A stretch of 64,000 nt of DNA. Origin: Bordetella parapertussis (lineage in GTDB: Bacteria > Pseudomonadota > Gammaproteobacteria > Burkholderiales > Burkholderiaceae_B). Position numbers and translations under genes: made by a program. Where the stretch lies: NCBI GenBank assembly GCA_945865935.1, contig CAMBFI010000010.1, forward strand, positions 1 to 64,000, written 5' to 3'. Shown in pieces: positions 1,796 through 36,314 of the stretch. The notes under the pieces are model-generated. The model saw only the letters and a program-made list of their open reading frames with translations, was not told where the DNA came from and did no database searches. Each line of letters starts with the position of its first letter. Positions within the stretch are counted from its first letter, which is position 1.

Positions 1796-2435
1796 CTAAG
1801 CGGTTAGAAAGCGTATCAAGCCAGGAAATCACTTCGGCTTTAGGCAAGACGTCGCCGTACTTTGCATTAATGTCAAACAGTGCGGCATCGTGAGGAGCAT
1901 CATGACGATCTCCGCAACATTCTTTGGGAACTATCACGCGATAGCCGTACTGTATGGCATCGACGGCTGTTGCCCGGACACAGCCGCTTGTTGAGCAGCC
2001 TATCAGGACGGTCGTATCAATGCCTAAGGTCTTGAGTGTCGAACCAAGCGATGTTCCGAAAAAACTGCTTGGATACTGTTTCGTGACAATAAAGTCTGAG
2101 GGCTGTGGCGTGATGCGATCGTCGATTGCACCAAGAGGTGCGCCTTGAATAAACAACTTGAGCGAAGGCACTTTCTTAAAAAATAGTCCACCATCCAAGC
2201 CAGAGGGGTGATACACCACCTGCGTATAGATGATGGGTGCGCCCGCGCGGCGCGCGGCGGCCAACAAGGGAATCGACTGACCGACCGCATCGACGACACC
2301 TTGACCAAAAAAAGGTGCGCCCTCAGTGGTGTACGCCTTCACAAAGTCGATCACAATGACGGCAGGTTTTTCACCAAATCCTAATCGTGTATCAAACACC
2401 CCCCGGTAATTATCCGCGCGGCTTGCATCCGTCAT
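1788..2435 (-). CDS. Isochorismatase-family cysteine amidohydrolase (N-carbamoylsarcosine amidase-like)
   Basis: A 215-residue cytoplasmic hydrolase of the isochorismatase fold. The Asp-Lys-Cys triad is recognisable: Asp in VIVIDFVKAY (about 30), Lys in FIVTKQYPSSFF (about 114) and Cys in GCSTSGCVRATAVDA (second Cys, about 152). The C-terminal part (GDRHDAPHDAALFDINAKYGD, near 172-192) resembles N-carbamoylsarcosine amidase and maleamate amidohydrolase more than true isochorismatases, so hydrolysis of a carbamoyl or amide group is the likely reaction. An AGGA ribosome site precedes ATG 2435. It is first in a three-gene overlapping operon with the RraA-like aldolase and an amidase, and diverges from the GntR regulator across a 328-bp gap. 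Nicotinate or creatinine routes are possible but other marker genes are absent. Confidence 0.88.
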   Translation of the reverse strand: MTDASRADNYRGVFDTRLGFGEKPAVIVIDFVKAYTTEGAPFFGQGVVDAVGQSIPLLAAARRAGAPIIYTQVVYHPSGLDGGLFFKKVPSLKLFIQGAPLGAIDDRITPQPSDFIVTKQYPSSFFGTSLGSTLKTLGIDTTVLIGCSTSGCVRATAVDAIQYGYRVIVPKECCGDRHDAPHDAALFDINAKYGDVLPKAEVISWLDTLSNRLDG

Positions 2436-2763
2436 TATCGTTCCTCATAAAAAGTTTACAAAACTTGTTCAATATAGTGTTCACAATAAAACCAATGAAA
2501 GCCAAGGCACATAGGTTAAAACCCCAAGAGCAATCAATCTTGTAGCAAAGAAAGGAATGACCCCTTTCACGACAGATTCAACTGGAATTTTTGCAATGGA
2601 ACTCATGATCTGCGGCATGCAACGGTGTCACGGCGAGGCCCTGTCAAGAGAGGGCTGTGCAAAATAAGGCCTATAGCACTGATCTGCGTATAATTTTCAT
2701 CATTATCTCCAGTTAAATAACGACAAGCTGGGTTCAAAAGCTAAAAGGTCAACAGTACTCAAC
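2436..2763. other. Divergent intergenic region between amidohydrolase operon and GntR gene
   Basis: An AT-rich 328-bp stretch with no credible gene. It must carry the promoters of the minus-strand amidohydrolase operon and of the plus-strand regulator. Near its left end is a short inverted repeat ACAA-AAC-TTGT (2458-2468), close to a TTGT...ACAA pair separated by 14 bases. These share only the half-sites TTGT/ACAA with the 15-bp motif at 3547 and 9339. There is no full copy of that motif here. Confidence 0.5.
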
Positions 2764-3534
2764 ATGAAAATAAAGCCTTCCAAAGCAAGCACTGCCAGAA
2801 AGCCACGCCAGCCAATTTATAAACGCTTAGCGGTACAACTCACAACCGATATTGAAAAAGATCTTTACAAAGTCGGCGACATCATGCCGACCGAAGACGC
2901 GCTATCAAAAATGTATAAGGTAAGTCGTCATACGGTTCGCCAAGCACTTCGCGAGATCAAAGAGGACGGATTGATCACGTCGCGCGCACGTATCGGAACA
3001 GTGGTTAAGCGAAAGCCTACAGACTTAATGTTTTTCAATGGTATCAACACGATTGTAGATTTGCTCCAATTCGTTGATGCTACGGAAATGCACATCATAG
3101 AAACTAAAAAAATCAGAACGAATGAACTACTTGCTAAAGACTTGAATTGTCCGGTTGGGCAGCAATGGGTGACGGCAACCATCATCAGAAAAATGCCGGA
3201 GCACGTCAAGCCACTTAGTTACTTAGAGCTGTACCTTATTCCTGAATATGCTGATGTACTAAAAGGTGCGAAGGTGTTTTTTAAACCCATCTACTTGATG
3301 GTTGAAGCTCGGCATAGGGTGAAAATTGTTGAAATTGCCCAAGATATAACCGCCACTAATTTAAGTAAATCGCAAGCTACAGTCCTTAAAGCAACCGAGG
3401 GGCAGGCGGCATTAAAGATTCGACGCACCTACTACGACAAAGCCGGAGCGGTCGTTCAAATCAGTAATAGCTTGTATCCCAGTGGCCGTTTTATACAAAG
3501 TTCAAGATTTCGCGCCCAGTTAAACGAGGGCTAA
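2764..3534 (+). CDS. GntR-family transcriptional regulator with UTRA domain
   Basis: A 256-residue regulator of the HutC/FarR branch of GntR. Residues about 17-80 form the winged helix-turn-helix: QPIYKRLAVQL, then IMPTEDALSKMYKVSRHTVRQALREI, then a wing ending in GTVV. Residues about 95-250 are a UTRA ligand-binding domain, ending with RRTYYDKAGAVVQISNSLYP. Such proteins usually repress neighbouring catabolic genes and release DNA on binding a small ligand. Flanking amidases and CoA-transferases make it the likely local controller, and a repeated 15-bp inverted-repeat motif lies just after its stop and again at 9339. It diverges from the amidohydrolase operon. Ligand unknown. Confidence 0.92.
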   Translation: MKIKPSKASTARKPRQPIYKRLAVQLTTDIEKDLYKVGDIMPTEDALSKMYKVSRHTVRQALREIKEDGLITSRARIGTVVKRKPTDLMFFNGINTIVDLLQFVDATEMHIIETKKIRTNELLAKDLNCPVGQQWVTATIIRKMPEHVKPLSYLELYLIPEYADVLKGAKVFFKPIYLMVEARHRVKIVEIAQDITATNLSKSQATVLKATEGQAALKIRRTYYDKAGAVVQISNSLYPSGRFIQSSRFRAQLNEG

Positions 3535-3541
3535 ATACTGT

Positions 3542-3561
3542 TATATTAATTGTACGGACAA
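3542..3561 (+). promoter_or_regulatory. Predicted -10 box plus operator-like motif (copy 1) before amidase
   Basis: The sequence shows TATATT (3542-3547, five of six matches to the sigma-70 -10) running into TAATTGTACGGACAA (3547-3561). The core TTGT-ACGG-ACAA is an inverted repeat. The expected start of transcription falls inside it, about 40 bases before the amidase ATG at 3594. No good -35 is visible at 17-bp spacing. The same 15 bases recur at 9339-9353. Confidence 0.6.
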
Positions 3562-3593
3562 ATATTTCATCTCACAAGTGTTTTGAGTCAAAC

Positions 3594-4949
3594 ATGAACA
3601 GTCAACACCTATCGTCTCTGCAAAGGTTGGAACAGTGCTTCGAAGCAATTGAGGCATGGAATCCTTTAGTCAACGCGATGATGATTGTCGATACAGACGG
3701 TGCGCGCCGTGCCGCGCAAGCGGCTGATGACGCTGCCGCGCAAGGACGGTCGCTTGGCTTACTTCACGGCATCCCGATTGCCGTTAAAGATAACTTGGAT
3801 ACGGCGGGTTTACGTACGACGTATGGATCTGGTTTTTTTAAAAATCACGTTCCTACAAAGGATGCGACAGTGGTCAGGCGATTGCGCCAAGCGGGGGCAG
3901 TCATTGTCGGCAAGGCGAGTTTGCATGAATTTGCCTTTGGTGTGCGTTCAAACAATCCAGTGTCCGGTCAGTGTCGGAACCCCTGGGACATTACACGCAT
4001 ACCCGGCGGCTCAAGTGGTGGATCCGGGGTTGTGGTCGCAACGGGCATGTCGCAAATGGCGCTTGGAACCGATACTGGAGGGTCAGTTCGAATTCCGGCG
4101 GCGCTCAATGGCGTGACTGGGCTGCGCACTACGCTTGGGCGGGTGCCCAACACAGGGTGCATGCCGGTCAGCGAGACCCACGACACGGTAGGACCGATGG
4201 CGCGCACGGCGCATGAGGCGGCACAGTTATTCGCAGTACTCGCGGGTTTTGATCCTGAAGATCCCATCAGCGAGTCAGTGAGACTTGAGCAATTTTTACC
4301 GAATTTGCGACAGGGCATTAAAGGCGTAAAGATTGGTGTCTCAACCAATCACTATTTCGAGGACCTCGACCCCTGCGTCGCAAAGGCGATGGAGCAAGCG
4401 TTGGATACGCTTAAAAAACTCGGAGCTGAAATCGTCGATATCGCATTACCCGGCGCCGAGTTGGCACATGCAAGTTCGACACATATGATTTATTTGGATG
4501 CGTGTGTCACGCATGCGGAGCGCCTTGCGATCGGAGGTGAGAACTGGAGCCCTCAGACCTTAGAGCGTATGAAAATGGGACTTAGCTATACGGGTACCGA
4601 TTACGCGCGTGCGATGCGCCATCGAGAGGCCTGGGTACGCCAGATGCAGACAGTATTTACAAAAATTGATGTCTTGCTATCACCCACTACAAAGACGGTT
4701 GCCCCCCCGATCATTGAAGACCGAAATTTATTTGAAGCAACGCGCGCGGTCACTGCCAATACCTATGTGGGTGCATTCGCCAAAATACCTGGCCTGTCGG
4801 TGCCTTGTGGCCTATCCATCCAAGGGCTTCCAATCGGCCTCATGCTCGAGGCGGCTGCTTGGAATGAGCCTTTGCTTTTGCAGGTAGGTTGTGCGTTTCA
4901 AGACGTGACGGATTGGCATACCCTACGTCCAGCGATGCCCAAAGGGTAA
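3594..4949 (+). CDS. Amidase (amidase signature family)
   Basis: A complete 451-residue cytoplasmic amidase of normal family length. The Ser-cisSer-Lys triad is intact: Lys65 in PIAVKDNLDTAG, cis-serine at 140-141 in PGGSSGGSG and nucleophile Ser164 in GTDTGGSVRIP. It resembles the GatA/AtzF-like group, but no GatB, GatC or urea carboxylase neighbours exist, so small-molecule amide hydrolysis is likelier than tRNA amidation. It has no signal peptide. A GAG-type ribosome site precedes ATG 3594. It follows the GntR gene by 59 bp, with the operator-like motif between them, and ends 19 bp before the convergent CitE-like gene. It is probably co-regulated with the CoA-transferase operon that starts at 9317. 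Confidence 0.92.
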   Translation: MNSQHLSSLQRLEQCFEAIEAWNPLVNAMMIVDTDGARRAAQAADDAAAQGRSLGLLHGIPIAVKDNLDTAGLRTTYGSGFFKNHVPTKDATVVRRLRQAGAVIVGKASLHEFAFGVRSNNPVSGQCRNPWDITRIPGGSSGGSGVVVATGMSQMALGTDTGGSVRIPAALNGVTGLRTTLGRVPNTGCMPVSETHDTVGPMARTAHEAAQLFAVLAGFDPEDPISESVRLEQFLPNLRQGIKGVKIGVSTNHYFEDLDPCVAKAMEQALDTLKKLGAEIVDIALPGAELAHASSTHMIYLDACVTHAERLAIGGENWSPQTLERMKMGLSYTGTDYARAMRHREAWVRQMQTVFTKIDVLLSPTTKTVAPPIIEDRNLFEATRAVTANTYVGAFAKIPGLSVPCGLSIQGLPIGLMLEAAAWNEPLLLQVGCAFQDVTDWHTLRPAMPKG

Positions 4950-4968
4950 GCGCCCACAAGTATTCAAA

Positions 4969-5856
4969 TCACTTCGTCATCTTTAAGTGACGGGCTAAGT
5001 CTAATGTGCGCTGGGCAGGTGCGATTAGATCGACCGCCACGAACGTGCCATCGACGACTGCAGTACCAAATCCTTTTTTTATACTCTCTTGATACCCCAA
5101 GATTAATTTTTCTGCCGCCTCGATTTCTTCCGCAGAGGGAGAAAATATTTTATTCACGACATCGATTTGGTTCGGATGAAACACCACCTTGCCGCAGAAG
5201 CCAAACTCACGTGCAATGATTGCGTCCGCTTGTGTTGCTTCTGCGTCTTTGACGCGTTCAAAAAAGGCTGCATCGATTGCTTGTATGTTGCACGCCGCAG
5301 CCGCAGCCGTTACGACTGATCTTGGAAAATGTAAGGTGTTAGCAGAAATTTTTGCACCGGTTGCTGAGCAATAGTCCCCTGAGCCAAAAAATAGCGCTTT
5401 AGTGCGAGGCAACGTATCTGAAATAGACAAGGCATTCAATATGCCTCGAGGTGTCTCAAGCATGACGATCAGTTGAAGAGGATGCTGCTGATCTCGATCA
5501 GCCTGTAAGGAATTGAGTCGTTCTTCAAGGAGTAGCAAACTATGACTTGATTCAACTTTCGGGATCATGAGTGAATCGATCATCGAAAGCGGCAGTGCGG
5601 ACAGATCATCCAAACCGTACGGGGTATCCAAACCATTAATGCGAACGCAAATCTCTTGATGATTACGTCGCAAGGCTTGAATGGTTTCACAGGTAATCTG
5701 GCGTGCCGCAGATTTTTCAGCGGGCGGAATACTATCCTCGAGATCAATGACTAGCGAATCACAAGGCAGGCTTGTCGCCTTCATGATCCGGTCTGGGCGA
5801 TTGCCTGGCGTCATTAACATAGACCGACGTACGTAAACCGATTTGCGTGTAAACAT
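4969..5856 (-). CDS. CitE-like CoA-ester lyase (HpcH/HpaI aldolase superfamily)
   Basis: A 295-residue Mg-dependent TIM-barrel lyase of the citrate lyase beta / citramalyl-CoA / malyl-CoA lyase group. Visible elements are RRSMLMTPGNRPDR (10-23), VIDLEDSIPPAEK (36-48), Arg72 in CVRIN, PKVES (99-103), the metal-binding Glu134 in MLETPRG, Asp161 in GSGDY and the C-terminal VVFHPNQIDVVN. The family cleaves 3-hydroxyacyl-CoA esters to acetyl-CoA or propionyl-CoA plus a 2-oxoacid. It is the last gene of the four-gene minus-strand operon 9317-4969, 13 bp after a CoA-transferase, which would supply its thioester substrate. No CitD/CitF partners are present, so it probably acts on free CoA esters rather than as a citrate lyase subunit. 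Confidence 0.9.
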   Translation of the reverse strand: MFTRKSVYVRRSMLMTPGNRPDRIMKATSLPCDSLVIDLEDSIPPAEKSAARQITCETIQALRRNHQEICVRINGLDTPYGLDDLSALPLSMIDSLMIPKVESSHSLLLLEERLNSLQADRDQQHPLQLIVMLETPRGILNALSISDTLPRTKALFFGSGDYCSATGAKISANTLHFPRSVVTAAAAACNIQAIDAAFFERVKDAEATQADAIIAREFGFCGKVVFHPNQIDVVNKIFSPSAEEIEAAEKLILGYQESIKKGFGTAVVDGTFVAVDLIAPAQRTLDLARHLKMTK

Positions 5857-5869
5857 ACTTACGATGTCC

Positions 5870-7084
5870 TTAAATAACGCCTTTGTTTACAAGCTCTGCA
5901 ATCCGTTCAGCCGATAGGCCTAAGCGTCCTCTAAATACTTCGTCGTTGTGTTGACCAAGCGCAGGCCCTAGACTTCGAATTTTTCCTGGTGTGTCAGTCA
6001 GTCGTGGCACTAAATTCGGAATGGCGTGCTCTTGTCCAAAGGCGTCCTTCATATACTTGATGTTTTCTCGTGCGGCATATTGAGGATCGACAAATATTTC
6101 ATCAATTGAATACACCGAGCCACAGGGAACTTGGAAAGATTCGCACGTGGATAAGACTTGTTCTCGAGTCAGTGTCGAAGACCAAGCGCCCACAAACTCA
6201 TCCACCACAGAGCGCTCTGCTTCGCGTTGAGTGATTGTGCCCCATTTGCCGTCCCCTCCAAATTCTGGGACACCCATGGCAAGGGCGAGTCTTTCGAAAA
6301 TTTTGTCACTCGTGCAGGCGATCGCGATCCACTTGTCATCTTTGGTGGGGTAATGACTGTGTGGAACAACATTGACTGTACCGGGGCCCATGCGTTCGCG
6401 AACAAAGCCTTTCATATGATAGGACGGTGCGATTTCATCCAGGATGCGGAAGACGGGCTCATACAGTCCAATATCTACCACTTGCCCACGGCCGGTTTTT
6501 TGTAAAGCTTGGATGCACAGCAATACTCCCAGCGCGCCGTATAAGCCTGCCAGATAGTCGGGGATGGTCGCTGAACCAGGGGTAACGGGCGGTCGGTCCG
6601 GGTAGCCCGCAAGATAAGACAGTCCGCCGAACGCGTTCCCAATGCGACCGAATCCAGGCCTCGGACTGTATGGCCCAGTCTGCCCGTACCCCGAGATCCG
6701 GACCATAATGAGTTTTGGATTGACTTCTTTCAACACGTCCCATCCAAGCCCCCACTTTTCGAGTGTGCCAGGTTGAAAGTTTTCAACTAAGACATCGGCG
6801 TCTTTAATCAGCGCTTTAAGTAGCTCGGCGCCTTCCGGCTTGCGAAGATCCAAGGTGGCAGATTTTTTATTTCGACATTCGGAAAGCCAAGGCAATGAGT
6901 CGCCATTTGGTGTGATGCTGCCAAAGCGCCGCAAGGCATCTCCCACCTTCGGGAGTTCCAACTTAATCACGTCCGCACCAAATTCGGCGAGCTGTGTGGA
7001 ACAAAACGGACCAGCTAGAAAGCTTGATACGTCAATAACTTTTAAACCGTCTAACGGTTGAATGTTGCTATCGTTGAATTGCAT
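5870..7084 (-). CDS. Class III (CaiB/BaiF) CoA-transferase B
   Basis: A 404-residue CaiB/BaiF-family CoA-transferase, full length for the family. Conserved parts are the opening LKVIDVSSFLAGPFC, the nucleotide-contact segment EFGADVIKLELPKVGDALR (about 33-51), NKKSATLDLR, VLVENFQPGTLEKWGLG, and the catalytic aspartate in TIPDYLAGLYGA (about 173). The family swaps CoA between acids, usually from succinyl-CoA or formyl-/acyl-CoA donors. It lies between the lyase-like gene (42 bp upstream) and the CitE-like lyase (13 bp downstream), implying it makes the hydroxyacyl-CoA that one of them cleaves. It is a divergent paralogue of the transferase at 8067-9317. Confidence 0.92.
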   Translation of the reverse strand: MQFNDSNIQPLDGLKVIDVSSFLAGPFCSTQLAEFGADVIKLELPKVGDALRRFGSITPNGDSLPWLSECRNKKSATLDLRKPEGAELLKALIKDADVLVENFQPGTLEKWGLGWDVLKEVNPKLIMVRISGYGQTGPYSPRPGFGRIGNAFGGLSYLAGYPDRPPVTPGSATIPDYLAGLYGALGVLLCIQALQKTGRGQVVDIGLYEPVFRILDEIAPSYHMKGFVRERMGPGTVNVVPHSHYPTKDDKWIAIACTSDKIFERLALAMGVPEFGGDGKWGTITQREAERSVVDEFVGAWSSTLTREQVLSTCESFQVPCGSVYSIDEIFVDPQYAARENIKYMKDAFGQEHAIPNLVPRLTDTPGKIRSLGPALGQHNDEVFRGRLGLSAERIAELVNKGVI

Positions 7085-7126
7085 AAAATACTCCGATTCA
7101 ATTTGGTTAGCGAGGACAATAAGTTT

Positions 7127-8080
7127 TTAGGCGGGATGCTCGCGTGGATGGTCTTTGCCCCATTGCATGACCGCTTCCCGGGTGCAATCAAGAGCGGAAT
7201 GACTTCTTGGGGAGATCTCAAGTAAGGCAGCAATCTCCTTTGAGGCTTGAGTCACGCGCTCGACGTTCAAGCCAGTTTTTATTTGAAGAAGCTCTAGCAT
7301 ACGCACTAAATCTTCTGCTGGGTAGTTTCCCACCGAGCCGAGCGATTCGGGCATGGCGATTCCACCACCAATGCCACAGATAGCGCCTTCTAAAAACGCA
7401 GCGCCGCCATCAAGTGCGGCAAGGATATTTGCTGTCGCCATGCCTGACAAGTTATGAATATGAAAACCGAACTCGACGTCAGGAAACTGATCGCGCAGCA
7501 TTGAAAAGAGAGCGTTGACATGTCGCGGATCTTCCATTCCGACTGAGCCCGCCAAATACATTTTCTGTATACCCGCATTTCGAAACTTTTTCACCATATC
7601 GATGACGCGCTGCTTGGCAATTAGACCTTCGTACGGACACCAAAAAGACATACCGATCGCAATGACGTAGCTACAACCTGCTGTTTGAGCAATTCTAAAG
7701 GCTTCGATCGCTTGATCGTTGGCCTGCTCAGCACTCATATTCTGATTTTTTTTGAGATAAGTATCGCTTGCGATGGCTAGCCCGACAACTTCGTTAACGC
7801 CTGCTGCGACAGCTCGTGTGGCACCTCGCGCGTTAGGCGCAAGCCCGCGATAGACAGTGCCTGGTTTGCGCTTAATGCGTTCGCACACCTCTTCAGCATC
7901 TCGAAGATTTGGGATCACGCGAGGATGCGCAAAACCAGCGACTTCAATCACTGGAAATCCGGTCTCGGTCAAAATATCAATCATCTTAACTTTGTCTTCA
8001 GTGGATACCCAGCGCTTAAAGCTCTGTAGGCCATCTCGTGCAGAGACATCAATGACGGTTATTTTTTCAGGAAATTGCAT
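7127..8080 (-). CDS. HMG-CoA lyase-like TIM-barrel lyase with Cys-to-Gly change
   Basis: A 317-residue DRE-TIM metallolyase. It keeps the metal and substrate residues of 3-hydroxy-3-methylglutaryl-CoA lyase: Arg15-Asp16 in SARDGLQS, Glu47, His207 and His209 in GFHIHN, and the G-N at 251-252. Two departures stand out. The usual HxHD reads HIHN, and the active-site G-loop reads CGIGGGIAMP, so the catalytic Cys (expected at about 240 as G-G-C) is Gly, while a Cys sits at 235. It overlaps the upstream CoA-transferase by 14 nt. The family breaks C-C bonds of 3-hydroxy-3-alkylglutaryl-type thioesters, but the altered loop means the true reaction may differ. Confidence 0.85.
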   Translation of the reverse strand: MQFPEKITVIDVSARDGLQSFKRWVSTEDKVKMIDILTETGFPVIEVAGFAHPRVIPNLRDAEEVCERIKRKPGTVYRGLAPNARGATRAVAAGVNEVVGLAIASDTYLKKNQNMSAEQANDQAIEAFRIAQTAGCSYVIAIGMSFWCPYEGLIAKQRVIDMVKKFRNAGIQKMYLAGSVGMEDPRHVNALFSMLRDQFPDVEFGFHIHNLSGMATANILAALDGGAAFLEGAICGIGGGIAMPESLGSVGNYPAEDLVRMLELLQIKTGLNVERVTQASKEIAALLEISPRSHSALDCTREAVMQWGKDHPREHPA

Positions 8081-9317
8081 CTGGACCTCCTGGATTATTG
8101 AGTACGTGATCGGTGTTGATACCCTCGTGTGCGAGCTGGGTAAGCGTATAGCCTAATTGCTCGACTAACACGGCGTGATTATCTGCACCGAGTCTTGGAC
8201 CTGGATGACGGATATGTCCAGGCGATTCGGAAAGCTTTCCTACGACACCTTGCATGCGAACATTCGACTTGAGTTCGGAATCAAAAAGCTGAGTAATGTT
8301 TTGCCTTGCTTGTATGTGCGGATCAGCAAAAATTTGTTCGACGTCATTCACTGGAGACATCGTAGAACTATTTTTGGCCGCTTGCGCTAATAAGTCGTCT
8401 AGATCAAATTGCGAAACTGCGGATTGAATTGCTTGGTCGAGTGCTTCAACGTTCTTTATCCTTAGGCGATTATTTAAAAATCGAGGATCTTCAATAATTT
8501 CCGGAATTCCAAGCGTTTTACAAATACTCGTGAACGCCGACTGCGCGCTGCCGCCAATCGTTACCCAACGTTCGTCACGCGTCCGATACGTATTGCGGGG
8601 AGCAGTAAATGAAAGTCTGCTGCCGCTGCGTTGTTGGATAATGCCGAGCTGATCATAATTAATGACGTTTGGCCCGATCAGCGTTAACAGGGTTTCATAA
8701 ATGGCCAAATCAATATATTGGCCTTTCCCTGTGCGCCGCTTTTCGGCCATTGCAACAAGCCCAAGATATGCCGCCATGAGACCCGTCGTAGAGTCTGCTA
8801 ACCCAAACCCTGGGAGCAGTGGGGCTTGATCCGGGTAGCCGGAAATAAAGGCGGCGCCTGCATAGGCTTCGGCTAGCGTTCCGAAGCCAGGACGATCGCT
8901 GTACGGTCCTGTTTGCCCATAACCGGTTACGCGAATCATGATCAGGCTTGGATTGATCGCTTTGAGTGTTTCGTACCCGAGGCCCCACTTTTCAAGTGTC
9001 CCCGTTCGGTAGTTCTCGATCACGATATCCGTGTCCAGCACCAGTTTTTTTACGACTTCGACCCCGAAGGGGGTTCGTAGATCAAGCGTGACGGACTTTT
9101 TACCGCGATTGATGACCTTGTAATACAGCCCAACGCCGTCTTTGTTTTCGCCCCAAAACCGCATTTCGTCACCGGAGCCCGGCTTTTCAATTTTTATGAC
9201 CTGCGCACCAAAGTCTGCCATAAACATGGCGCACATCGGGGCCGCGAGGAAGTTTGAGAGGTCTAGCACTTTGACGTCCGAGAGCGCCCCCGCTGTTGAC
9301 TTTTCGTCCGTTGACAT
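8067..9317 (-). CDS. Class III (CaiB/BaiF) CoA-transferase A, first gene of operon
   Basis: A 416-residue CaiB/BaiF CoA-transferase. Key segments are VKVLDLSNFLAAPMC (about 15-29), DFGAQVIKIEKPGSGDEMR, NRGKKSVTLDLRTP, VIENYRTGTLEKWGLG, and the likely catalytic Asp in GLADSTTGLMAAY (about 183). It opens the operon that continues with the lyase-like gene (14-nt overlap), a second transferase and the CitE-like lyase. A well-formed sigma-70 promoter and operator-like motif lie 22-61 bp upstream on the minus strand. Two different transferases in one operon suggest either two acids or two steps needing CoA transfer. Substrates unknown; itaconate-, mesaconate- or methylmalate-type dicarboxylates are plausible. 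Confidence 0.92.
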   Translation of the reverse strand: MSTDEKSTAGALSDVKVLDLSNFLAAPMCAMFMADFGAQVIKIEKPGSGDEMRFWGENKDGVGLYYKVINRGKKSVTLDLRTPFGVEVVKKLVLDTDIVIENYRTGTLEKWGLGYETLKAINPSLIMIRVTGYGQTGPYSDRPGFGTLAEAYAGAAFISGYPDQAPLLPGFGLADSTTGLMAAYLGLVAMAEKRRTGKGQYIDLAIYETLLTLIGPNVINYDQLGIIQQRSGSRLSFTAPRNTYRTRDERWVTIGGSAQSAFTSICKTLGIPEIIEDPRFLNNRLRIKNVEALDQAIQSAVSQFDLDDLLAQAAKNSSTMSPVNDVEQIFADPHIQARQNITQLFDSELKSNVRMQGVVGKLSESPGHIRHPGPRLGADNHAVLVEQLGYTLTQLAHEGINTDHVLNNPGGPDAIS

Positions 9318-9338
9318 TTTTTGTATACCTCGTTAACC

Positions 9339-9378
9339 TAATTGTACGGACAATAGTTAGGTTTAGTTTGACTGTCAA
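9339..9378 (-). promoter_or_regulatory. Sigma-70 promoter with overlapping operator-like motif (copy 2)
   Basis: Read on the minus strand, TTGACA (9378-9373) is followed after exactly 17 bp by TATTGT (9355-9350), a near-consensus sigma-70 promoter pointing at the CoA-transferase gene. The 15-bp motif TAATTGTACGGACAA (9339-9353 on the plus strand) covers the -10 and the expected start point near 9343. This geometry fits repression by steric hindrance. The same region lies 170 bp upstream of the divergent Bug gene at 9524 and could also serve it. Confidence 0.68.
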
Positions 9379-9523
9379 GTATAGATACTGACAAAGCACA
9401 GTCGCTCGATCTAACCGGCAACAGAGTCACTACAGTGCAATGCCCGAACGTGCTGACTACTACGGTCAGAATAAAAGGGTGGAGCTTGTTTCTAGCTGGT
9501 TAATCCACAAATAGGGAGTTGAT

Positions 9524-10507
9524 ATGTCTTTTTTGCAAAAGTACCTGATAAATATCTGCGCTAGTTTTGCCGCATGCTTGGTGATGTCTCCCGCTCACGC
9601 AGACCCAACGTTTCCGAACCGACCGATCAATGTAGTGGTCGCTTTTGGTCCCGGTACCGGTAGCGATACGATCTCTAGAATTCTGTCAGAAAAGATGAGA
9701 GAAATACTTGGGTCACCCGTGACGGTCGAAAATCGATTGGGTGGGGGAGGAGTCATTGGTACAGAGTATGTGGCTCGCGCAAAGCCAGATGGGTATACCT
9801 TAACGATGGGCTCGACTTCATCGCTTGGAACCACACCAGTTTTAAACCCCAATGCAAAATACGATGTCAAAAAAGATTTTGTATTCATTTCAGGCATAGC
9901 AAAGTCTGATTATGTGATTTTCACGTCGACTAGACCAGGCTCGCCTAAAACCCTAGGCGAATTGCTTGCTCGATTAAAGAAAGAGCCAAGCAGTTTTGCC
10001 TCGGCTGGAGTTGGAACAATTACTCACCTTGCGACAGAAATGCTTCTGCACAAAGCATCCCTGTCTGCGACACATGTTCCCTACAAGGGAAGTGGGCAGG
10101 TAATTATGGATGTAGCCGCTGGACAGGTGTTGTTCGCGACGGATTCTCCATCAGCGACATTACCGCTCATTAAGTCTGGCAAGCTGAGAGCGCTAGCTGT
10201 GACAGGCCCGACTCGGCTTGGTGCGCTTCCCGACGTCCCGACGGTTGCTGAGAGCGGTTTCCCTGGCTTTCAAGTTTTAGCATGGTGGTGTTTGGCTGCA
10301 CCAGCCGGTACGCCTCAGGCTGTGATCAATAAGTTGAGTGACGCTGCTCAAAAAGCGGTCGCCTCGCCCGAGATCACTGCCCGGCTACGAAAAATGGAGA
10401 TCGAGCCAATGCTGATGAATGCGGCTGAGCTCACTGACTTCGTCAATAAAGATATTCCAGTGTGGACCAACTTTATCAAAAATAGTGGAATCAAAATTGC
10501 TCCGTAA
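9524..10507 (+). CDS. Bug/TctC-family periplasmic solute receptor 1
   Basis: A 327-residue tripartite-tricarboxylate-transporter receptor. A Sec signal peptide of about 26 residues ends at AHA-D. The Bug hallmarks follow: FPNRPINVVVAFGPGTGSD, VENRLGGGGVIG and AKPDGYTLTMG, then HVPYKGSGQ and DVPTVAESGFPGF. Such receptors bind carboxylates in the periplasm, with the ligand held between two lobes. A GGGAG ribosome site precedes ATG 9524. No TctA/TctB gene is adjacent, so it must use membrane partners encoded elsewhere or act in sensing. It sits 38 bases before the hydro-lyase operon and diverges from the CoA-transferase operon, so it probably captures that pathway's substrate. Confidence 0.93.
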   Translation: MSFLQKYLINICASFAACLVMSPAHADPTFPNRPINVVVAFGPGTGSDTISRILSEKMREILGSPVTVENRLGGGGVIGTEYVARAKPDGYTLTMGSTSSLGTTPVLNPNAKYDVKKDFVFISGIAKSDYVIFTSTRPGSPKTLGELLARLKKEPSSFASAGVGTITHLATEMLLHKASLSATHVPYKGSGQVIMDVAAGQVLFATDSPSATLPLIKSGKLRALAVTGPTRLGALPDVPTVAESGFPGFQVLAWWCLAAPAGTPQAVINKLSDAAQKAVASPEITARLRKMEIEPMLMNAAELTDFVNKDIPVWTNFIKNSGIKIAP

Positions 10508-10571
10508 GGTTGTATGACTAAAACTGGGGTGTGCTAAATATCTTGTGCCTTTAGTTGACGAAAGGATTTAT

Positions 10572-11072
10572 ATGCAAGTTGAGGGATTCGCGACGGTGTT
10601 GGGTGACGACATTGACACAGACGTTATTTTTCCGGCGCGATACCTCGCCGTTTTAAAGCCTGAAGATCAAGCGAAATATTTGTTCGAACCTCTGGGCGAG
10701 GACATACGGCAAAAGGTTCTTGCTGGCGGTGTCGTCATAGGAGGTTGGAATTTTGGTTGCGGCTCATCTCGCGAGCACGCGGTGACGTCTATGATCGGCG
10801 CGAATGTGCGCCTTGTGCTTGCAAAATCTTTCTCACGCATTTTTTTTAGAAATGCAGTCAACAATGGCTTGGCAGTCGTCATTAGCCCGGAAATTGTGTC
10901 TGCGATCGCTGAGGGAGACAAGATTTTTGCGGATCTGCAGGCTGGGCAAGCATCCATCAATGGCAAAGCACTTTCTTTTACGCCGCTTCCACCCGAGGTG
11001 CTTGCGATTCTTAGCGCAGGCGGACTGTGGGCTGCAAAATTGGCTCAGAACAACAAAGAGGTAAAGACATGA
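10572..11072 (+). CDS. LeuD-like small subunit of a two-subunit hydro-lyase
   Basis: A 166-residue aconitase-superfamily swivel-domain protein of the short LeuD/HacB type. It shows DDIDTDVIFPARYL (12-25), GGWNFGCGSSREHA (57-70, the GSSREHA substrate motif) and SFSRIFFRNAVNNGL. The specificity loop reads YLAVLK, unlike the Tyr-Leu-Arg loop typical of isopropylmalate isomerases. I start at ATG 10572 because GAAAGGA sits just upstream; an in-frame GTG at 10545 lacks a site. The stop overlaps the large-subunit start as ATGA. There are no LeuA or LeuB neighbours and the setting is catabolic, so I infer hydration or isomerisation of an unsaturated or methylated dicarboxylate (maleate, citraconate or dimethylmalate type). 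Confidence 0.88.
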   Translation: MQVEGFATVLGDDIDTDVIFPARYLAVLKPEDQAKYLFEPLGEDIRQKVLAGGVVIGGWNFGCGSSREHAVTSMIGANVRLVLAKSFSRIFFRNAVNNGLAVVISPEIVSAIAEGDKIFADLQAGQASINGKALSFTPLPPEVLAILSAGGLWAAKLAQNNKEVKT

Positions 11073-12355
11073 GTCAAACGCTCACGGAAAAAATTATGGG
11101 TCGCCTGGCGGGGCGGACGGTGAAAGCGGGTGATATGGTTGAGATGGGTCCCGATTGGACGTTTGCATTGGATGATGGCGTTGGACTGATTGATCAAAAC
11201 TTTAAGCGCTATGGCGTAAAAAAACTGGCTCATCCAGAGAAGATCAGGCTGTTCTACGATCACTACGCACCTGCGGATACCCCACTACATGCCTTGATGC
11301 ATAAAATTGGCAGAAAGCTGTTTGATCAGTTCGGGATTCCTCGGGAACATTTACACGAGGTTGGCGCGGGAATCTCGCATCAAATTGCAGTTGAAAGTGG
11401 CTTGGTTCATCCGGGTACTATGGTCACAAATATGGACTCACACACCATCACAGTGGGCGCTGTTGGTGCGATTGGTTGCGGCATTGGCGGGGCGGAGATG
11501 GCCTACCTCTGGTCTGAAGGTAAGTTGTGGTTTAGAGTCCCTGAAAGCATAAAAATCGAATTGACGGGACGCATGCCGCCAGGCGTTGCCGCAAAAGATA
11601 TTGTTTTGTCGATACTTCAGTCGATCTCCGCGAGGGGTGCGATCTATGCTGCAATTGAATATCATGGTGAGGCCATTTCCCACATGAGTATTCCTGAGCG
11701 AATGACGCTCTGCAATATGGGAATTGAAATGGGGGCAAAGTTCGCAGTGGTACCCGGTGACGCTGTTACTCAAGCACATTTCGACCGATTAAATATAAAG
11801 ATTGCAGAAATGCCGCAGCCCGATGTAGATGCGCACTATGTATCGCATCATAAAGTTGATTTATCGACATTAGGGCCATTGGTGTCGGCACCAAATAAAG
11901 TGGATAACGTACATCCAGTTGGCAACTTTAGCGCCGTGCGCATTAATCAAGCTTTCATCGGAACATGTACGAATGGGCGCTTTGAAGATTTTGAGATTGC
12001 AGCCTCCATTTTAAAAGGTAAGAAGATCGCGTCGGATGTCCGGCTGGTCGTCACTCCAGCTTCTAGGCAGGTTTACATGCAGGCGCTTACTTCTGGAGTG
12101 CTTGAAATTTTGGTGAACGCTGGCGCTTCGGTGACCACTCCAGGCTGTGGCGCATGCGCTGGAATGCATCAGGGAGTGTTGGCGGAGGGAGAAGTCTGCA
12201 TCTCATCTTCGAGCCGAAATTTTCTCGGCAGAATGGGACATCGCGATGCCTCGGTTTATCTAGGCTCGCCTGCGACGGTTGCGGCGAGCGCACTGACCGG
12301 ATTCATCACAGACCCTCGAGCCCACCTAGTCATCGCACGTGGTTTAGTTAATTAA
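11069..12355 (+). CDS. LeuC-like large [4Fe-4S] subunit of a two-subunit hydro-lyase
   Basis: A 428-residue aconitase-family catalytic subunit. The three iron-sulphur ligands are in place: Cys300 in FIGTCTNGRFED and Cys360/Cys363 in PGCGACAGMHQG. Other family segments are SHTITVGAVGAIGCGIG (124-140) and the terminal SSRNFLGRMGH. The ATG at 11069 overlaps the small-subunit stop (ATGA) and follows AGAGGTAA, so it is preferred over GTG 11027. The length matches the archaeal-type LeuC/HACN and maleate hydratase group, shorter than bacterial leucine-pathway LeuC. It forms the enzyme with the upstream small subunit. Substrate unknown: maleate, citraconate, 2,3-dimethylmalate and homoaconitate-like acids are all handled by relatives. 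Confidence 0.9.
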   Translation: MSQTLTEKIMGRLAGRTVKAGDMVEMGPDWTFALDDGVGLIDQNFKRYGVKKLAHPEKIRLFYDHYAPADTPLHALMHKIGRKLFDQFGIPREHLHEVGAGISHQIAVESGLVHPGTMVTNMDSHTITVGAVGAIGCGIGGAEMAYLWSEGKLWFRVPESIKIELTGRMPPGVAAKDIVLSILQSISARGAIYAAIEYHGEAISHMSIPERMTLCNMGIEMGAKFAVVPGDAVTQAHFDRLNIKIAEMPQPDVDAHYVSHHKVDLSTLGPLVSAPNKVDNVHPVGNFSAVRINQAFIGTCTNGRFEDFEIAASILKGKKIASDVRLVVTPASRQVYMQALTSGVLEILVNAGASVTTPGCGACAGMHQGVLAEGEVCISSSSRNFLGRMGHRDASVYLGSPATVAASALTGFITDPRAHLVIARGLVN

Positions 12356-12359
12356 GACG

Positions 12360-14069
12360 TTACGGATTTTTGCGATGTTCTCTTTTCTTTAAGTGCCGTA
12401 AATCGCAAATTTCCTTTATGCTTCGAGGATCCAAAGAATTTTCGAAAATCATATGTTTTTGAATTTTCTGCGTGCCGGTTGTTGGAAGATCATCAACAAG
12501 CAAAATCCAACCTGGTGCTTTGTAATAAGCTAGGCGTTCAGAACAGTGCTTGAAAAGACTGATTGCAATCTTCTGACGTTCTTCTGTACTCCAATCATTC
12601 TTGATCGATCGTGCGCGCTCACTGAGGCACACACACGCTAACACCTCTTGTTCCCTTACTTCATCAGTCACACCAAGAACAGCTACCATTTTGACTAGTA
12701 GATGCGCCTGTAATATGGCTTCGACCTCTGCAGCCGAAATATTTTCACCGGAGCGACGAATGATGTGTTTATTGCGATCTACAAAGTGCAACATCCCGCC
12801 TGAATCTCGCGTTACCACGTCGCCAGTATGAAACCACCCGCCGCGCCATGCGCTTTCAGTCGCCTCGGGATCATCAAGATAGCCGCTGAAAAAATCTTTT
12901 CTAGGTTCTCGTGCTGAATGGCGAATCAGCATCTCGCCCGGATTATTCTCTAGGACATCTCGACCCTGATCGTCGACCACGCGTACTTCAAGGCCAGGCG
13001 CTTGTTTACCGAAGGCACGTGATCCAACTTGTCGAGGTGGGGAACTAACGGAAAGTGTTCGAACCATTTCCGTCATACCCCAGATCTCAACGAGTGGAAA
13101 GCCAAATCGGTCCTCAAAGGTTTGATGCAGAGTCGGTTCGACACCTGCTCCAAAGCCAAAACGAATACGGTGCTCTCGCTCCCGCGGGACAGTTGGCTGA
13201 TTTAACAGCATAGGAACGATGACGCCCAGGTAGTGAGCAATGGTTGCCCGACTCGTCACAATCTCTTCCCACCAGCGCTTTGGTTGAAATCGATCTGCCT
13301 GTATCTGACAATTTCCGGTTAATAGCATGCAGTAGAAAGACAGAACGGAGGCGTTGACGTGATAGAGCGGGAGTGGATTGAACAAACGTTCCTGGTTTTC
13401 TTGGATATCAGCAAGCCCCCCTGTATTGGCATACCAAGCACCGGCCGCGAGTTCATAGCGATGAGACAACACACACCCTTTGGGCTTACCGGTGGTGCCA
13501 GAGGTGTAAAGGATGCTAGCAGGCGTGTCGCTATTAGGTTTTACATGCTCTTTTAGAATCTTGGGTGGCGATAGTTCCTGCGCAAAGCTTTCCACGCATA
13601 CGATCGACGGCATGCTCGCATGACGGCCCACTGCGTCAATGATGTTTTTTAGGTGAGTCCGCAGACTAATGATTACATCGACGCGTGAGTGACTAATGAT
13701 GTAAGCGAGTTCTTGAGGCCGATAGTCCGGGTTTAACGGAACGCAGCAAACACCTAAGCTGTTGAGCGCAAGCTTGTGCAAAATATGTTCGGGTCGATTT
13801 TCTAGACTTAAGCCCACTCGGTGCCCAACACCGTAACCAGCTTGTGAATATACGGAGATCAGGTATTGAACTTGTTCTGCAGCTTGCGCATAGGTGAGTT
13901 CAAGTCCGTCAGGGAGGTAGACCCGAGAAGGGTTCTTTGGCACTGCGAGCAGCGCGCTTGATCCGTAGCTTCGTACGGCTTCAAAAAAAGCATCTCCTAT
14001 CGTGGAGTATCGGCTGATATCTATCAAAATGGTCTCGATCTGTGTGAAATGCCGAGTGAGTACCGGCAT
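12360..14069 (-). CDS. AMP-binding acyl-CoA ligase, CaiC-like
   Basis: A 569-residue adenylate-forming ligase converting an acid, ATP and CoA to acyl-CoA. The P-loop is LYTSGTTGKPKG (about 188-199). Further motifs are IWGMTE, GWFHTGDV, the hinge HIIRRSGENISAAEVEAIL and a C-terminal GTQKIQKH whose Lys is the catalytic acyl-adenylation residue. The hinge with GEN and the TTGTQKIQKH ending resemble CaiC-type carnitine/crotonobetaine ligases. No signal peptide. It converges on the LeuC-like gene with a 4-bp gap and diverges from the hydantoinase gene with about 36 bp, where no strong ribosome site is seen, so the exact N-terminus (ATG 14069) is uncertain. It may supply another CoA ester to the same pathway. 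Confidence 0.9.
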   Translation of the reverse strand: MPVLTRHFTQIETILIDISRYSTIGDAFFEAVRSYGSSALLAVPKNPSRVYLPDGLELTYAQAAEQVQYLISVYSQAGYGVGHRVGLSLENRPEHILHKLALNSLGVCCVPLNPDYRPQELAYIISHSRVDVIISLRTHLKNIIDAVGRHASMPSIVCVESFAQELSPPKILKEHVKPNSDTPASILYTSGTTGKPKGCVLSHRYELAAGAWYANTGGLADIQENQERLFNPLPLYHVNASVLSFYCMLLTGNCQIQADRFQPKRWWEEIVTSRATIAHYLGVIVPMLLNQPTVPREREHRIRFGFGAGVEPTLHQTFEDRFGFPLVEIWGMTEMVRTLSVSSPPRQVGSRAFGKQAPGLEVRVVDDQGRDVLENNPGEMLIRHSAREPRKDFFSGYLDDPEATESAWRGGWFHTGDVVTRDSGGMLHFVDRNKHIIRRSGENISAAEVEAILQAHLLVKMVAVLGVTDEVREQEVLACVCLSERARSIKNDWSTEERQKIAISLFKHCSERLAYYKAPGWILLVDDLPTTGTQKIQKHMIFENSLDPRSIKEICDLRHLKKREHRKNP

Positions 14070-14105
14070 AATATAGACTACAAAACTACCGTCTATCCGA
14101 GTCCA

Positions 14106-15563
14106 ATGATGAACGAATTTGATTTAACGATACGCAATGGGCGCATATCAGACGCCAATACCACTTATTACGCGGATATCGGCATTAAAGATGGAAAGAT
14201 TGCCATCATCGCTGATCGCCTACCGGCAGCGGCCTCCGACATTGACGCGACAGGCTTATGGATTCTGCCAGGTGGTATCGATAGCCATTGCCATGTAGAT
14301 GAGCGTTCGCCAATGGGCATGCGTGTGGCGGACGATTTTTTAAGTGCAACAACTTCTGCGGTATTCGGTGGCACGACAACGATTATTCCTTTTGCTGTCC
14401 AGCACCGTAAAGATCACTTGCCGACTGTGATCGCTGACTACAAGGCGTTGGCAACACAACGCGCGGTCATTGACTACGCATTACACTTGATTGTTACCGA
14501 TCCCAATCCCGACACGCTTAGCAGCCATTTGCCTGCAGCCATTCGCAGTGGAATCACCTCGTTCAAAGTCTTCATGACTTATGAGGTCTTAAAGCTCACA
14601 GACGAACAAATTCTGGATATCCTTGAGCTAGCGGACGCCGAGGGCGCGTTAGTGATGATTCATGCTGAAAACGATGACATGATTCGTTGGTTAACCCGAA
14701 AATTACTGAGCTTTGGTCATACCTCGCCAAAGTTTCATGGCGTGTCGCATGACCCAATCGCTGAGGCAGAGGCCGCTAATCGAGCGGTGAGCATGGCCGC
14801 GCTGATGGATGTTCCTATTTTGATTGTGCATGTATCGGGCATTGAGCCGTTAAGAATCATTCACGGTGCGCAGGCATTAGGTTTAAATATTTTGGCCGAA
14901 AGTTGCCCACAATACCTTTTTCTGACCGCTGACGATCTCGACCTACCCGGCGTGGAGGGTGCAAAATATTGCTGTAGTCCGCCCCCTCGCGATCCTATCT
15001 CGCAAAAAGCGGTGTGGGATAGTTTGTTAGACGGTACGCTGCAGCTGTATTCGTCTGATCACGCGCCGTACAAGTTTGATGAAAGCGGTAAGATTCCGCG
15101 TGGCGAGCAAACTATTTTTACCGAAATGGCGAACGGTTTGCCAGGTCTTGAACTCAGGATGGCTCTGCTGTTTTCTGAGGGCGTCTTGACAGGCCGCATG
15201 CCGATCGAACGCTTCGTTGCACTGTGCTCGACGAATCACGCCCGAACTTATGGACTATTTCCGCGCAAAGGTGCGATTGCCGTGGGAAGTGATGCCGATC
15301 TGGCCCTGTGGAATCCCACTGTGAAGCGAGTCGTGCAAGCGGAGATGCTCCATGACAAGGCAGGCTATACGCCTTATGAGGGAAGAACGATCACGGGCTG
15401 GCCGACAACCGTGCTAAGCCGAGGACGAGTGGCGGTGCAAGATAATCGCTTGTTGCTTCAGCCCGGCGATGGAGAGCTGCTTGCTTGTGGGACACCAGAG
15501 CCTGTTGTACGTCAAAGACTAAATGGAAATCCTAATAGTGTTCGAAGAAAGTTTTTTACCTGA
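14106..15563 (+). CDS. Dihydropyrimidinase / hydantoinase-family amidohydrolase
   Basis: A 485-residue cyclic amidohydrolase with a complete binuclear metal centre: His61 and His63 in SHCHVDE, the carboxylated Lys154 in SFKVFMTY, His186 in IHAEND, His242 in VHVSG and Asp318 in SSDHAP. This group opens cyclic amides such as dihydropyrimidines, hydantoins and cyclic imides. I start at ATG 14106 (MMNEFDL) because the longer ATG at 14049 would overlap the divergent ligase and adds residues unlike the family. A GST gene follows after 28 bp. Together with two amidases and an amidohydrolase at the left it suggests breakdown of a nitrogen ring. Allantoinase is less likely, since the CCSPPPRD region is dihydropyrimidinase-like. 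Confidence 0.9.
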   Translation: MMNEFDLTIRNGRISDANTTYYADIGIKDGKIAIIADRLPAAASDIDATGLWILPGGIDSHCHVDERSPMGMRVADDFLSATTSAVFGGTTTIIPFAVQHRKDHLPTVIADYKALATQRAVIDYALHLIVTDPNPDTLSSHLPAAIRSGITSFKVFMTYEVLKLTDEQILDILELADAEGALVMIHAENDDMIRWLTRKLLSFGHTSPKFHGVSHDPIAEAEAANRAVSMAALMDVPILIVHVSGIEPLRIIHGAQALGLNILAESCPQYLFLTADDLDLPGVEGAKYCCSPPPRDPISQKAVWDSLLDGTLQLYSSDHAPYKFDESGKIPRGEQTIFTEMANGLPGLELRMALLFSEGVLTGRMPIERFVALCSTNHARTYGLFPRKGAIAVGSDADLALWNPTVKRVVQAEMLHDKAGYTPYEGRTITGWPTTVLSRGRVAVQDNRLLLQPGDGELLACGTPEPVVRQRLNGNPNSVRRKFFT

Positions 15564-20231: not shown

Positions 20232-20277
20232 CCAAAACGTGTCGCTTTGGATGATATTTAGATTATTGGAGATGAAG

Positions 20278-21228: not shown

Positions 21229-21248
21229 GGTTTCGTAATGTTGTCCTG

Positions 21249-21290
21249 ACGACGCACCTTGCATCATCGAGGGTGCGTCGTTGTTTTATT
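21249..21290 (+). terminator. Intra-operon hairpin, attenuator between TAXI receptor and permease
   Basis: Two 10-base arms, ACGACGCACC (21249-21258) and GGTGCGTCGT (21272-21281), pair perfectly around a 13-base loop and are followed by TGTTTTATTT. This is a rho-independent terminator shape placed between two genes that must both be expressed, so partial termination or 3'-end protection of receptor mRNA is likely. Confidence 0.75.
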
Positions 21291-21317
21291 TGATATTTAA
21301 ATTGTGTAGGTAGAGCC

Positions 21318-36290: not shown

Positions 36291-36314
36291 ATATATTTCT
36301 CTAGGAGAGTGGCC

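Follow-up and report, generated by a model that had tools for sequence, protein, structure and literature searches.

A candidate two-locus catabolic regulon with a rare HMGL-like lyase in Bordetella parapertussis

Whether a run of catabolic genes in Bordetella parapertussis (GCA_945865935.1) forms one pathway, and which one, is the question raised by the first 64 kb (the window) of contig C10, which is 128,270 bases long and one of the 54 contigs that make up the 3.25-Mb draft genome. The first-pass annotation had read positions 3594–12355 as a catabolic island containing an amidase, two CaiB coenzyme A (CoA) transferases, HMGL-like and CitE-like lyases, a LeuCD-like hydro-lyase and a Bug receptor, with a hydantoinase and a CaiC-like ligase nearby. 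By Pfam and NCBIfam, every one of these genes proved to be a real, intact frame where it had been placed; 40 window proteins, a subset of its open reading frames, were scanned with Pfam. The base composition was uniform over the window, with no sign of a foreign island. The best explanation, to which we give a probability of about one half, is that a catabolic regulon is spread over two loci, with the order of steps proposed below, and that the window holds the half that includes the regulator. The chemistry is probable and the substrate unproven. The central features were as follows.

2764–3534, plus strand: GntR-family regulator (HutC-type, UTRA domain), a probable repressor (Pfam GntR and UTRA; homologues of 44–57% identity in relatives)
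3547–3561, 5' of the amidase gene: operator copy 1, TAATTGTACGGACAA, a 15-mer present twice in the window
3594–4949, plus strand: amidase-signature hydrolase (PF01425, E 1.5e-112)
4969–5856, minus strand: CitE-like beta-hydroxyacyl-CoA lyase (PF03328; best PDB matches 3qll and 5vxc)
5870–7084, minus strand: class III CoA-transferase B, CaiB_B (PF02515)
7127–8080, minus strand: HMGL-like lyase of a rare subfamily, with a G-x-G-G-G loop and not G-x-G-G-C-P (PF00682; alignments)
8067–9317, minus strand: class III CoA-transferase A, CaiB_A (PF02515), overlapping the HMGL-like gene by 14 bases
9339–9353, between the divergent CaiB_A and Bug genes: operator copy 2, TAATTGTACGGACAA, at the same position in relatives

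The amidase gene was located 3' of the regulator gene. The minus-strand genes followed in the order CaiB_A, HMGL-like, CaiB_B and CitE-like with gaps of −14, 42 and 13 bases, an operon-like arrangement. The site TTGTACGGACAA occurred 5' of the amidase gene (3550) and of this operon (9342), and nowhere else in the window. The 12-mer pattern TTGTNCGNACAA gave two matches in the window against 0.09 expected, and none of 100 shuffles reached two. Copy 2, roughly 25 bases 5' of CaiB_A, overlapped the −10 element of a TTGACA-17-TATTGT match for this gene. The promoter and terminator scan of the window gave counts at or below those of the shuffles, so that the promoter match lends weak support. The isochorismatase–GntR gap (2436–2763) had no 9–10-mers in common with other gaps, and thus no operator was found in the window for GntR itself or for the isochorismatase gene.

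The conservation of the operator was assessed in ten related loci (L047, L048, L049, L050, L051, L082, L084, L237, L239, and L240), in which a GntR homologue (44% identity or more) lay beside CaiB_A/HMGL or CitE'/CaiB_B. In eight of the ten, a site deviating at one position or none was located 5' of CaiB_A, GntR/CitE' or amidase, and seven of those eight had two. A similar site preceded the orthologous amidases of genomes G015 and G038; the stretch of G038 concerned (L241), which lacked GntR, had a one-mismatch site 5' of its amidase. The variant TTGTCCGGACAA, one mismatch off the operator, was present in L084, L087, L242, and L243, at a CaiB_A start only in L087, and was not counted. At L242 15019 and L243 17472 it was found shortly 5' of a gene start, with no GntR homologue seen there. 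The locus and its relatives thereby display what defines a GntR/HutC regulon at the sequence level, a regulator gene and a conserved palindromic operator 5' of the targets, with two of the ten loci misfitting. That the amidase and the CaiB–HMGL–CaiB–CitE operon share an operator is well supported, and the GntR protein would be the repressor that binds the predicted sites.

Two forms of the gene set were found in relatives. The first was CaiB_A–HMGL–GntR–CitE'–CaiB_B with a branched-chain-type ATP-binding cassette (ABC) transporter and a further CitE (G005, G030, G047, G539, and G551). The second consisted of amidase, a tripartite ATP-independent periplasmic (TRAP) transporter, isochorismatase and CaiB_B (G015, G144, and G146, with G038 having them on separate contigs). 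The transporters of relatives were named from their N-terminal sequences by eye, and were profiled only in L048 (two proteins) and L237 (one). The CaiB_A–HMGL pair was kept in relatives. Among 199 other family genomes, CaiB_B relatives of 61–89% identity were found in 11, two of them of the same genus, and amidase relatives at E ≤ 1e-120 in three. As a separate observation, L242 (G144, same genus) contained PuuE-like allantoinase (below cut-off), RraA-like, and beta-keto-acid-cleavage-like genes at 1842–6837, adjoining an isocitrate-lyase-type gene and the CaiB_B/isochorismatase/TRAP/amidase block.

The operator also pointed to a second locus. Genome-wide, the broad pattern TTGTNCGNACAA was not enriched (seven sites versus eight for the control), and only the narrower form WTGTACGKACAW was specific. 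Four sites of the latter were present in the 3.25-Mb genome. Two were those of the window and the others lay on contig C25 (C25:5008 and C25:10917); the reversed control had none. The 20 kb of C25 that were read (L246) showed the order HpaB (minus strand), site, amidase remnant, TRAP genes DctP, DctQ and DctM, two isochorismatases, GntR remnant, site, and CitE'. The amidase remnant (5119–5601) kept residues 13–116 and 394–423, the GntR remnant (10269–10826) residues 52–112, and each still adjoined an operator. In G015, contig C37 carried the corresponding genes as one block: HpaB, site, amidase (63% identity), TRAP (only DctP was profiled) and two isochorismatases, then GntR, the site TTGTACGGACAA, CitE' and CaiB_B (84%). 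C25 thus looks like a decayed copy of a G015-type block. Amidase and GntR are mere remnants on C25, so that their intact copies in what is likely a two-locus regulon are those of the window. The simplest history would place the working regulator, amidase and CaiB_B in the window and the oxygenase, uptake and isochorismatase genes on C25 under the same operator, with the window GntR acting on the C25 sites.

The block in G015 also bears on a further rival, in which catabolic genes with no relation to one another accumulated here and the operator marks just an amidase and, from another pathway, a CoA-transferase operon. In favour of accretion, CitE-like lyases and Bug receptors are abundant in the genome: it had ten HpcH/HpaI matches, and at least six Bug/TctC genes were among the 40 scanned window proteins. 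The distribution was also patchy, with HMGL relatives of 62–72% identity in five of 150 other family genomes and none above 40% in the six same-genus genomes of that search. Against this stands the occurrence of amidase, isochorismatases, TRAP, GntR, CitE' and CaiB_B as one block with the same operator in G015, together with its apparently decayed counterpart on C25, and we regard accretion as improbable.

The HMGL-like protein matched human HMG-CoA (3-hydroxy-3-methylglutaryl-CoA) lyase (2cw6) over most of its length (E 5.9e-53). Its residues R15-D16, H207, H209, and N252 aligned with those of 2cw6, and both the RDG and HxH motifs were present. In HMG-CoA lyase, the Arg-Asp pair is catalytic and the His-x-His residues bind the metal, and the G-x-G-G-C-P loop bears the catalytic Cys. 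In the window lyase, the GLGGCP loop was replaced by CGIGGGIAMP, with three extra residues and loss of the Cys motif. The family assignment of the first-pass annotation therefore stands with the correction that the HMG-CoA lyase Cys motif is absent, and canonical HMG-CoA/leucine catabolism was disfavoured for this reason.

Among the 80 loci listed in the contig scan, at least seven, the closest ones, had the GGG loop and 73 had GGCP; a CaiB_A-like gene was directly upstream in five of those seven. The GGG form was also present in an Aminobacter lyase and in those encoded on five haloarchaeal plasmids. The lyase of Bordetella petrii MY10 was 70% identical to the window lyase among the matches listed. 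The class- and phylum-wide search gave 41 matches outside the window, of which 29 were inspected; all 29 were GGCP, with no further GGG lyase among them. A search of 397 genomes gave no other lyase match at E ≤ 1e-62. By its sequence, the GGG lyase is a member of a rare subfamily. The haloarchaeal GGG lyases were annotated as hydroxymethylglutaryl-CoA lyase in the records read, an annotation that may be wrong.

Both CoA-transferases had the Asp expected of working enzymes (D175 and D176); the roles of the Asp, Cys and other motif residues discussed here are those known for these enzyme families. The CitE-like lyase scored best with RipC among NCBIfam models (186.7 bits, cut-off 375), followed by citE (177.5 bits, cut-off 443.4). 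A CoA-transferase adjoining a CitE-like lyase with RipC as its best match recalls the known itaconate/(S)-citramalate degradation (Ict/RipA, Ich/RipB, and Ccl/RipC). The RipC score was, however, about half its cut-off, and no MaoC-type itaconyl-CoA hydratase was found among the 40 window proteins scanned. This pathway would also leave HMGL, LeuCD and amidase unexplained. It was rejected as very improbable.

On the other side of operator copy 2, three plus-strand genes formed an operon divergent from the CaiB_A group.

9524–10507, plus strand: Bug/TctC periplasmic binding protein (PF03401), assigned to the set by position only
10545–11072, plus strand: LeuD-like small subunit (PF00694; TIGR02087), a putative member
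11069–12355, plus strand: LeuC-like large subunit (PF00330; TIGR01343), a putative member

The LeuC frame was open from 11027, and the ATG at 11069 overlapped the LeuD stop codon as ATGA. LeuC and LeuD exceeded the cut-offs of TIGR01343 (486.8 versus 385.7 bits) and TIGR02087 (136.6 versus 108.95 bits), respectively. LeuC had the three cluster Cys residues (C314, C374, and C377, counted from 11027) and LeuD the GCGSS motif, which by sequence identifies the pair as a LeuCD-type hydro-lyase of the (homo)aconitase family. Leucine biosynthesis was disfavoured, as TIGR00170 and TIGR00171 gave 232.6 (cut-off 560.25) and 47.5 (cut-off 116.25) bits; the genome carries other LeuC homologues. Enzymes of the LeuCD type hydrate cis-dicarboxylates bearing both carboxylates on the double bond, and the isomerases among them can also yield a 3-alkylmalate.

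The combination of LeuCD with CaiB and an HMGL-like lyase recurred in distant organisms. LeuC adjoined the lyase gene in at least nine of the 12 best plasmid matches of the lyase, all nine haloarchaeal (LeuC matches from 30 of 51 records). The five haloarchaeal plasmids read all had CaiB–HMGL–LeuC–LeuD operons with a GGG lyase; in Natrinema versiforme, N. zhouii, Halorubrum, and Haloferax, these were preceded by isochorismatase and amidohydrolase genes, and Halomarina had the four genes. Four bacilli (L043, L117, L161, and L162) had the order CaiB–LeuC–LeuD–HMGL. The route drawn in the first-pass annotation, namely amide hydrolysis, LeuCD hydration, CoA activation and C–C cleavage, fits these haloarchaeal and bacillar operons. 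In addition, the second LeuCD set of this genome and those of four relatives had an isocitrate-lyase-type partner. By these gene neighbourhoods, LeuCD hydratases are repeatedly paired with a lyase that would cleave the product, and the type of lyase is interchangeable. The tie between LeuCD and CaiB/HMGL in the window is suggested by the shared divergent gap and by this analogy.

Further features of these LeuCD loci were noted. The second LeuCD set of the genome (G000:C1 319000–338900, L208) was accompanied by Bug, the isocitrate-lyase-type enzyme, CitE and a distant CaiB, and the same arrangement was present in two same-genus genomes (L210 and L211). The bacillar loci L162 and L117 contained luciferase-like monooxygenases (LLM), and that of L117 was near the RutA and SfnG models, below cut-off. 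Upstream of the L162 operon, two LLM monooxygenases were each followed by a small ArsC/Spx-like protein. L117 had small proteins without a Pfam match at the same places and, farther downstream, a xanthine/uracil-type permease and an isochorismatase. In Peribacillus, an Asp/Glu racemase adjoined the CaiB–LeuCD–HMGL operon.

The amidase contained the motifs VKDN, GGSSGG, and TDTGGS. Cyclic imide degradation proceeds by an imidase and a half-amidase. An isochorismatase-family enzyme was seen with these genes repeatedly, namely on C25, in haloarchaea and in some of the relatives. Three neighbouring window genes were weighed for membership.

1788–2435, minus strand: isochorismatase-family hydrolase (PF00857), a possible half-amidase of unproven membership
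12360–14069: acyl-CoA ligase (CaiC-like), an intact frame tied to the regulon solely by position
14049–15563, plus strand: D-hydantoinase/dihydropyrimidinase (NCBIfam PRK13404), membership unsupported

The hydantoinase matched the dihydropyrimidinase model PRK13404 with 705.6 bits (cut-off 647), and had no operator copy nearby and no conserved link to the gene set. Amidohydrolases of the haloarchaeal operons were only 29% identical to it; the one profiled was D-hydantoinase-like, below cut-off. The earlier suggestion that the hydantoinase and the CaiC-like ligase add ring opening and another activation step was thus left with position alone, and their membership is unsupported.

The genes, the operator sites and their conservation, the gene pairs and the C25 remnants are established by sequence, and the following scheme is proposed from them. 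The GntR-type repressor (2764–3534) would bind TTGTACG[G/T]ACAW 5' of the amidase gene and over the promoter of CaiB_A–HMGL–CaiB_B–CitE. It would also bind the two C25 sites, one 5' of the HpaB-type monooxygenase and the TRAP–isochorismatase group and the other 5' of the second CitE. The substrate would be taken up via TRAP and oxidized by the flavin monooxygenase; amide hydrolysis by the amidase and isochorismatases would then leave a dicarboxylate that is unsaturated or hydroxylated. LeuCD would most likely act on a substituted maleate derived from an amide or imide, in the simplest instance citraconate, and hydrate it to a 2-alkylmalate, for example (R)-citramalate. The class III CoA-transferases would activate the acid, with CaiB_A serving the 2-alkylmalate, and the HMGL-like and CitE-like lyases would split the thioester by retro-Claisen cleavage into acetyl- or propionyl-CoA and a 2-oxoacid. 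In the simplest case, citraconate would be converted to (R)-citramalate, (R)-citramalyl-CoA, and finally acetyl-CoA and pyruvate, with the HMGL-like lyase performing the cleavage. The CitE enzyme would cleave another hydroxyacyl-CoA, and the CaiB_B/CitE arm could cleave a 3-alkylmalate. We infer the repression, the control of C25 by this GntR, the order of steps, the participation of LeuCD and all substrates. The amidase, isochorismatases and HpaB enzyme lead us to speculate that the first substrate contains nitrogen and is probably ring-shaped, for example of the pyrrole, maleimide or hydroxypyridine type.

Several observations weigh against this scheme. A uniform base model predicts 3.1 strand hits of WTGTACGKACAW, about the four seen, so that the weight lies in the placement of the sites and not in their number. 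The two misfitting loci were L047, with no site at up to one mismatch, and L084, whose only site, at 2682, was away from these genes. Citraconate needs no monooxygenase, and the first substrate would therefore have to be more complex. The remaining points concern LeuCD. In the divergent gap, the operator lay closer to CaiB_A (25 bases) than to Bug (171 bases). No LeuC was found in the 10–21 kb read of each of 16 other loci with CaiB_A/HMGL or CaiB_B relatives, or in the 20 kb read of C25. LeuC had one close relative (79–80%) among the 199 other family genomes, and the closest LeuCD (LeuC 80%, LeuD 72%), in G539, accompanied a gene of the isocitrate-lyase/phosphoenolpyruvate-mutase family; this partnership is also compatible with cleavage of a substituted malate. 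The bacillar lyases were of the GGCP type, outside the subfamily of the window lyase. The LeuC tree, from which L091 (fused type) and L124 (biosynthetic-looking) were left out, set the window apart from the haloarchaeal and bacillar LeuC with weak deep splits. Common descent of the LeuCD, CaiB and HMGL sets was not shown by this tree, and no clade is claimed.

In a rival explanation, the regulon (GntR, amidase, CaiB_A–HMGL, CaiB_B–CitE, and the C25 genes) is real and Bug–LeuD–LeuC is a separately arrived neighbour. The transferase/lyase pairs would then act on tertiary hydroxydiacids supplied by other enzymes, such as both stereo-forms of HMG-CoA or citramalyl-CoA. The separate arrival is favoured by the isocitrate-lyase-type partner of the closest LeuCD, and by L047, L048, L050, L239, and L240, where CaiB_A–HMGL–GntR–CitE'–CaiB_B and an ABC transporter had no LeuC in the 20 kb read. 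A study of the CitE-like Rv2498c describes this enzyme as specific for (S)-citramalyl-CoA and (R)-HMG-CoA, and far weaker on (S)-malyl- and beta-methylmalyl-CoA, while the TIM-barrel HMGL enzymes take (S)-HMG-CoA (PMC6689899). An HMGL/CitE pair could accordingly cover two stereo-forms. On the other hand, LeuCD, CaiB and HMGL recur as a contiguous operon in both haloarchaea and bacilli, and the window lyase lacks the HMG-CoA lyase Cys motif and has its loop in common with the haloarchaeal operon enzymes. This rival is possible, and we consider it less probable than the regulon with LeuCD.

The single conserved six-gene island was rejected, as LeuCD is separable. Orthologues scattered without shared context, which the first-pass annotation had named as evidence against its island, were found for LeuCD and not for the other genes. 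What stood of the island was the operator common to the amidase and the CaiB–HMGL–CaiB–CitE operon, also seen in relatives. Its closure did not stand: LeuCD lay elsewhere in its closest relative, the 10–21 kb read around the CaiB/HMGL/CitE relatives contained no LeuC, and the monooxygenase, transporter and isochorismatases that likely belong to the regulon were on C25.

The regulon with LeuCD was compared with known systems. The (R)-citramalate pair consists of a class III CoA-transferase and an HMGL-family lyase and comes from Chloroflexus. Its enzymes are listed as EC 2.8.3.20 (CoA-transferase) and EC 4.1.3.46 ((R)-citramalyl-CoA lyase) (PMC8307300). The window pair is alike in its families and differs by its divergent gap with LeuCD and by an operator that also precedes amide hydrolase and monooxygenase genes. 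No model for the (R)-citramalate pair was matched in the NCBIfam results. In the nicotinate fermentation, the dimethylmaleate hydratase DmdAB is followed by a dimethylmalate lyase. That system likewise uses a LeuCD-type hydratase on an alkylmaleate before cleavage of the alkylmalate, and resembles the LeuCD sets with isocitrate-lyase-type neighbours; its lyase is CoA-independent, whereas the window has a CoA-transferase and an HMGL-like lyase. The human HMG-CoA lyase (2cw6) is similar over its full length and in the RDG, HxH, and Asn positions, and differs by its Cys motif, replaced in the window lyase by the GGG loop and three extra residues. The haloarchaeal plasmid operons (Natrinema, Halorubrum, and Haloferax) encode enzymes of the families seen in the window and likewise a lyase of the GGG form, but their proteins are 29–44% identical to those of the window and are encoded in a single operon, with an LLM-class oxidoreductase nearby in three of four.

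In the branched dicarboxylate cluster PA0878–0886 of P. aeruginosa (ict–ich–ccl), a CoA-transferase and the lyase Ccl also lead to acetyl-CoA and pyruvate. The PA0878–0883 genes conferred no growth on citraconate or (R)-citramalate on P. putida (PMC9875883). The literature covered, which included few subscription papers, gave no description of the function of the haloarchaeal operon. Nor did it hold an account of this combination under a single operator, of a lyase with the GGG loop or of the connection of such a lyase to LeuCD. Work on dimethylmaleate, on citraconate/maleate hydratase and (R)-citramalyl-CoA lyase, on cyclic imides, on HMG activation and on the gene set itself contained nothing about the combination. 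The component enzyme families are already known, and the novelty would lie in their combination under one operator, the GGG lyase and the LeuCD link. In a bolder and more tentative form, an undescribed split regulon would convert an N-heteroaromatic compound or imide to an alkylmaleate for CoA-dependent degradation by the LeuCD hydratase, a class III CoA-transferase and the GGG lyase. The latter would be a new (R)-2-alkylmalyl-CoA lyase, and haloarchaea would use this route too, as would bacilli with a GGCP lyase.

Other genes of the window were noted in passing. An AtzE-like amidase (1–1127) was cut by the contig start, so that an isochorismatase–RraA–amidase row was incomplete in the assembly. 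An NMT1_3 (TAXI-type) receptor and a fused TRAP permease were encoded at 20239–23330, and the same transporter type followed the CaiB–HMGL–LeuCD operon of Natrinema zhouii. An arylmalonate decarboxylase-family protein (PF17645) was encoded at 36309–37037 close to TctA and TctC genes. An 810-aa protein (40017–42449) joined an N-terminal NADH:flavin oxidoreductase domain to a C-terminal HbpS-like domain, a seemingly unusual fusion.

From the literature covered, little seems to be known of how bacteria degrade citraconate and (R)-citramalate, and the module is a candidate for the citraconate/(R)-citramalate route that is missing from the Pseudomonas cluster. If the proposal is true, a new route would supply the pathway that this cluster lacks. 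The defined operator, the regulator and a few purifiable enzymes make the question directly testable. Furthermore, the split regulon, with remnants at its second locus, would represent a pathway that was rearranged while its operator may keep the parts together.

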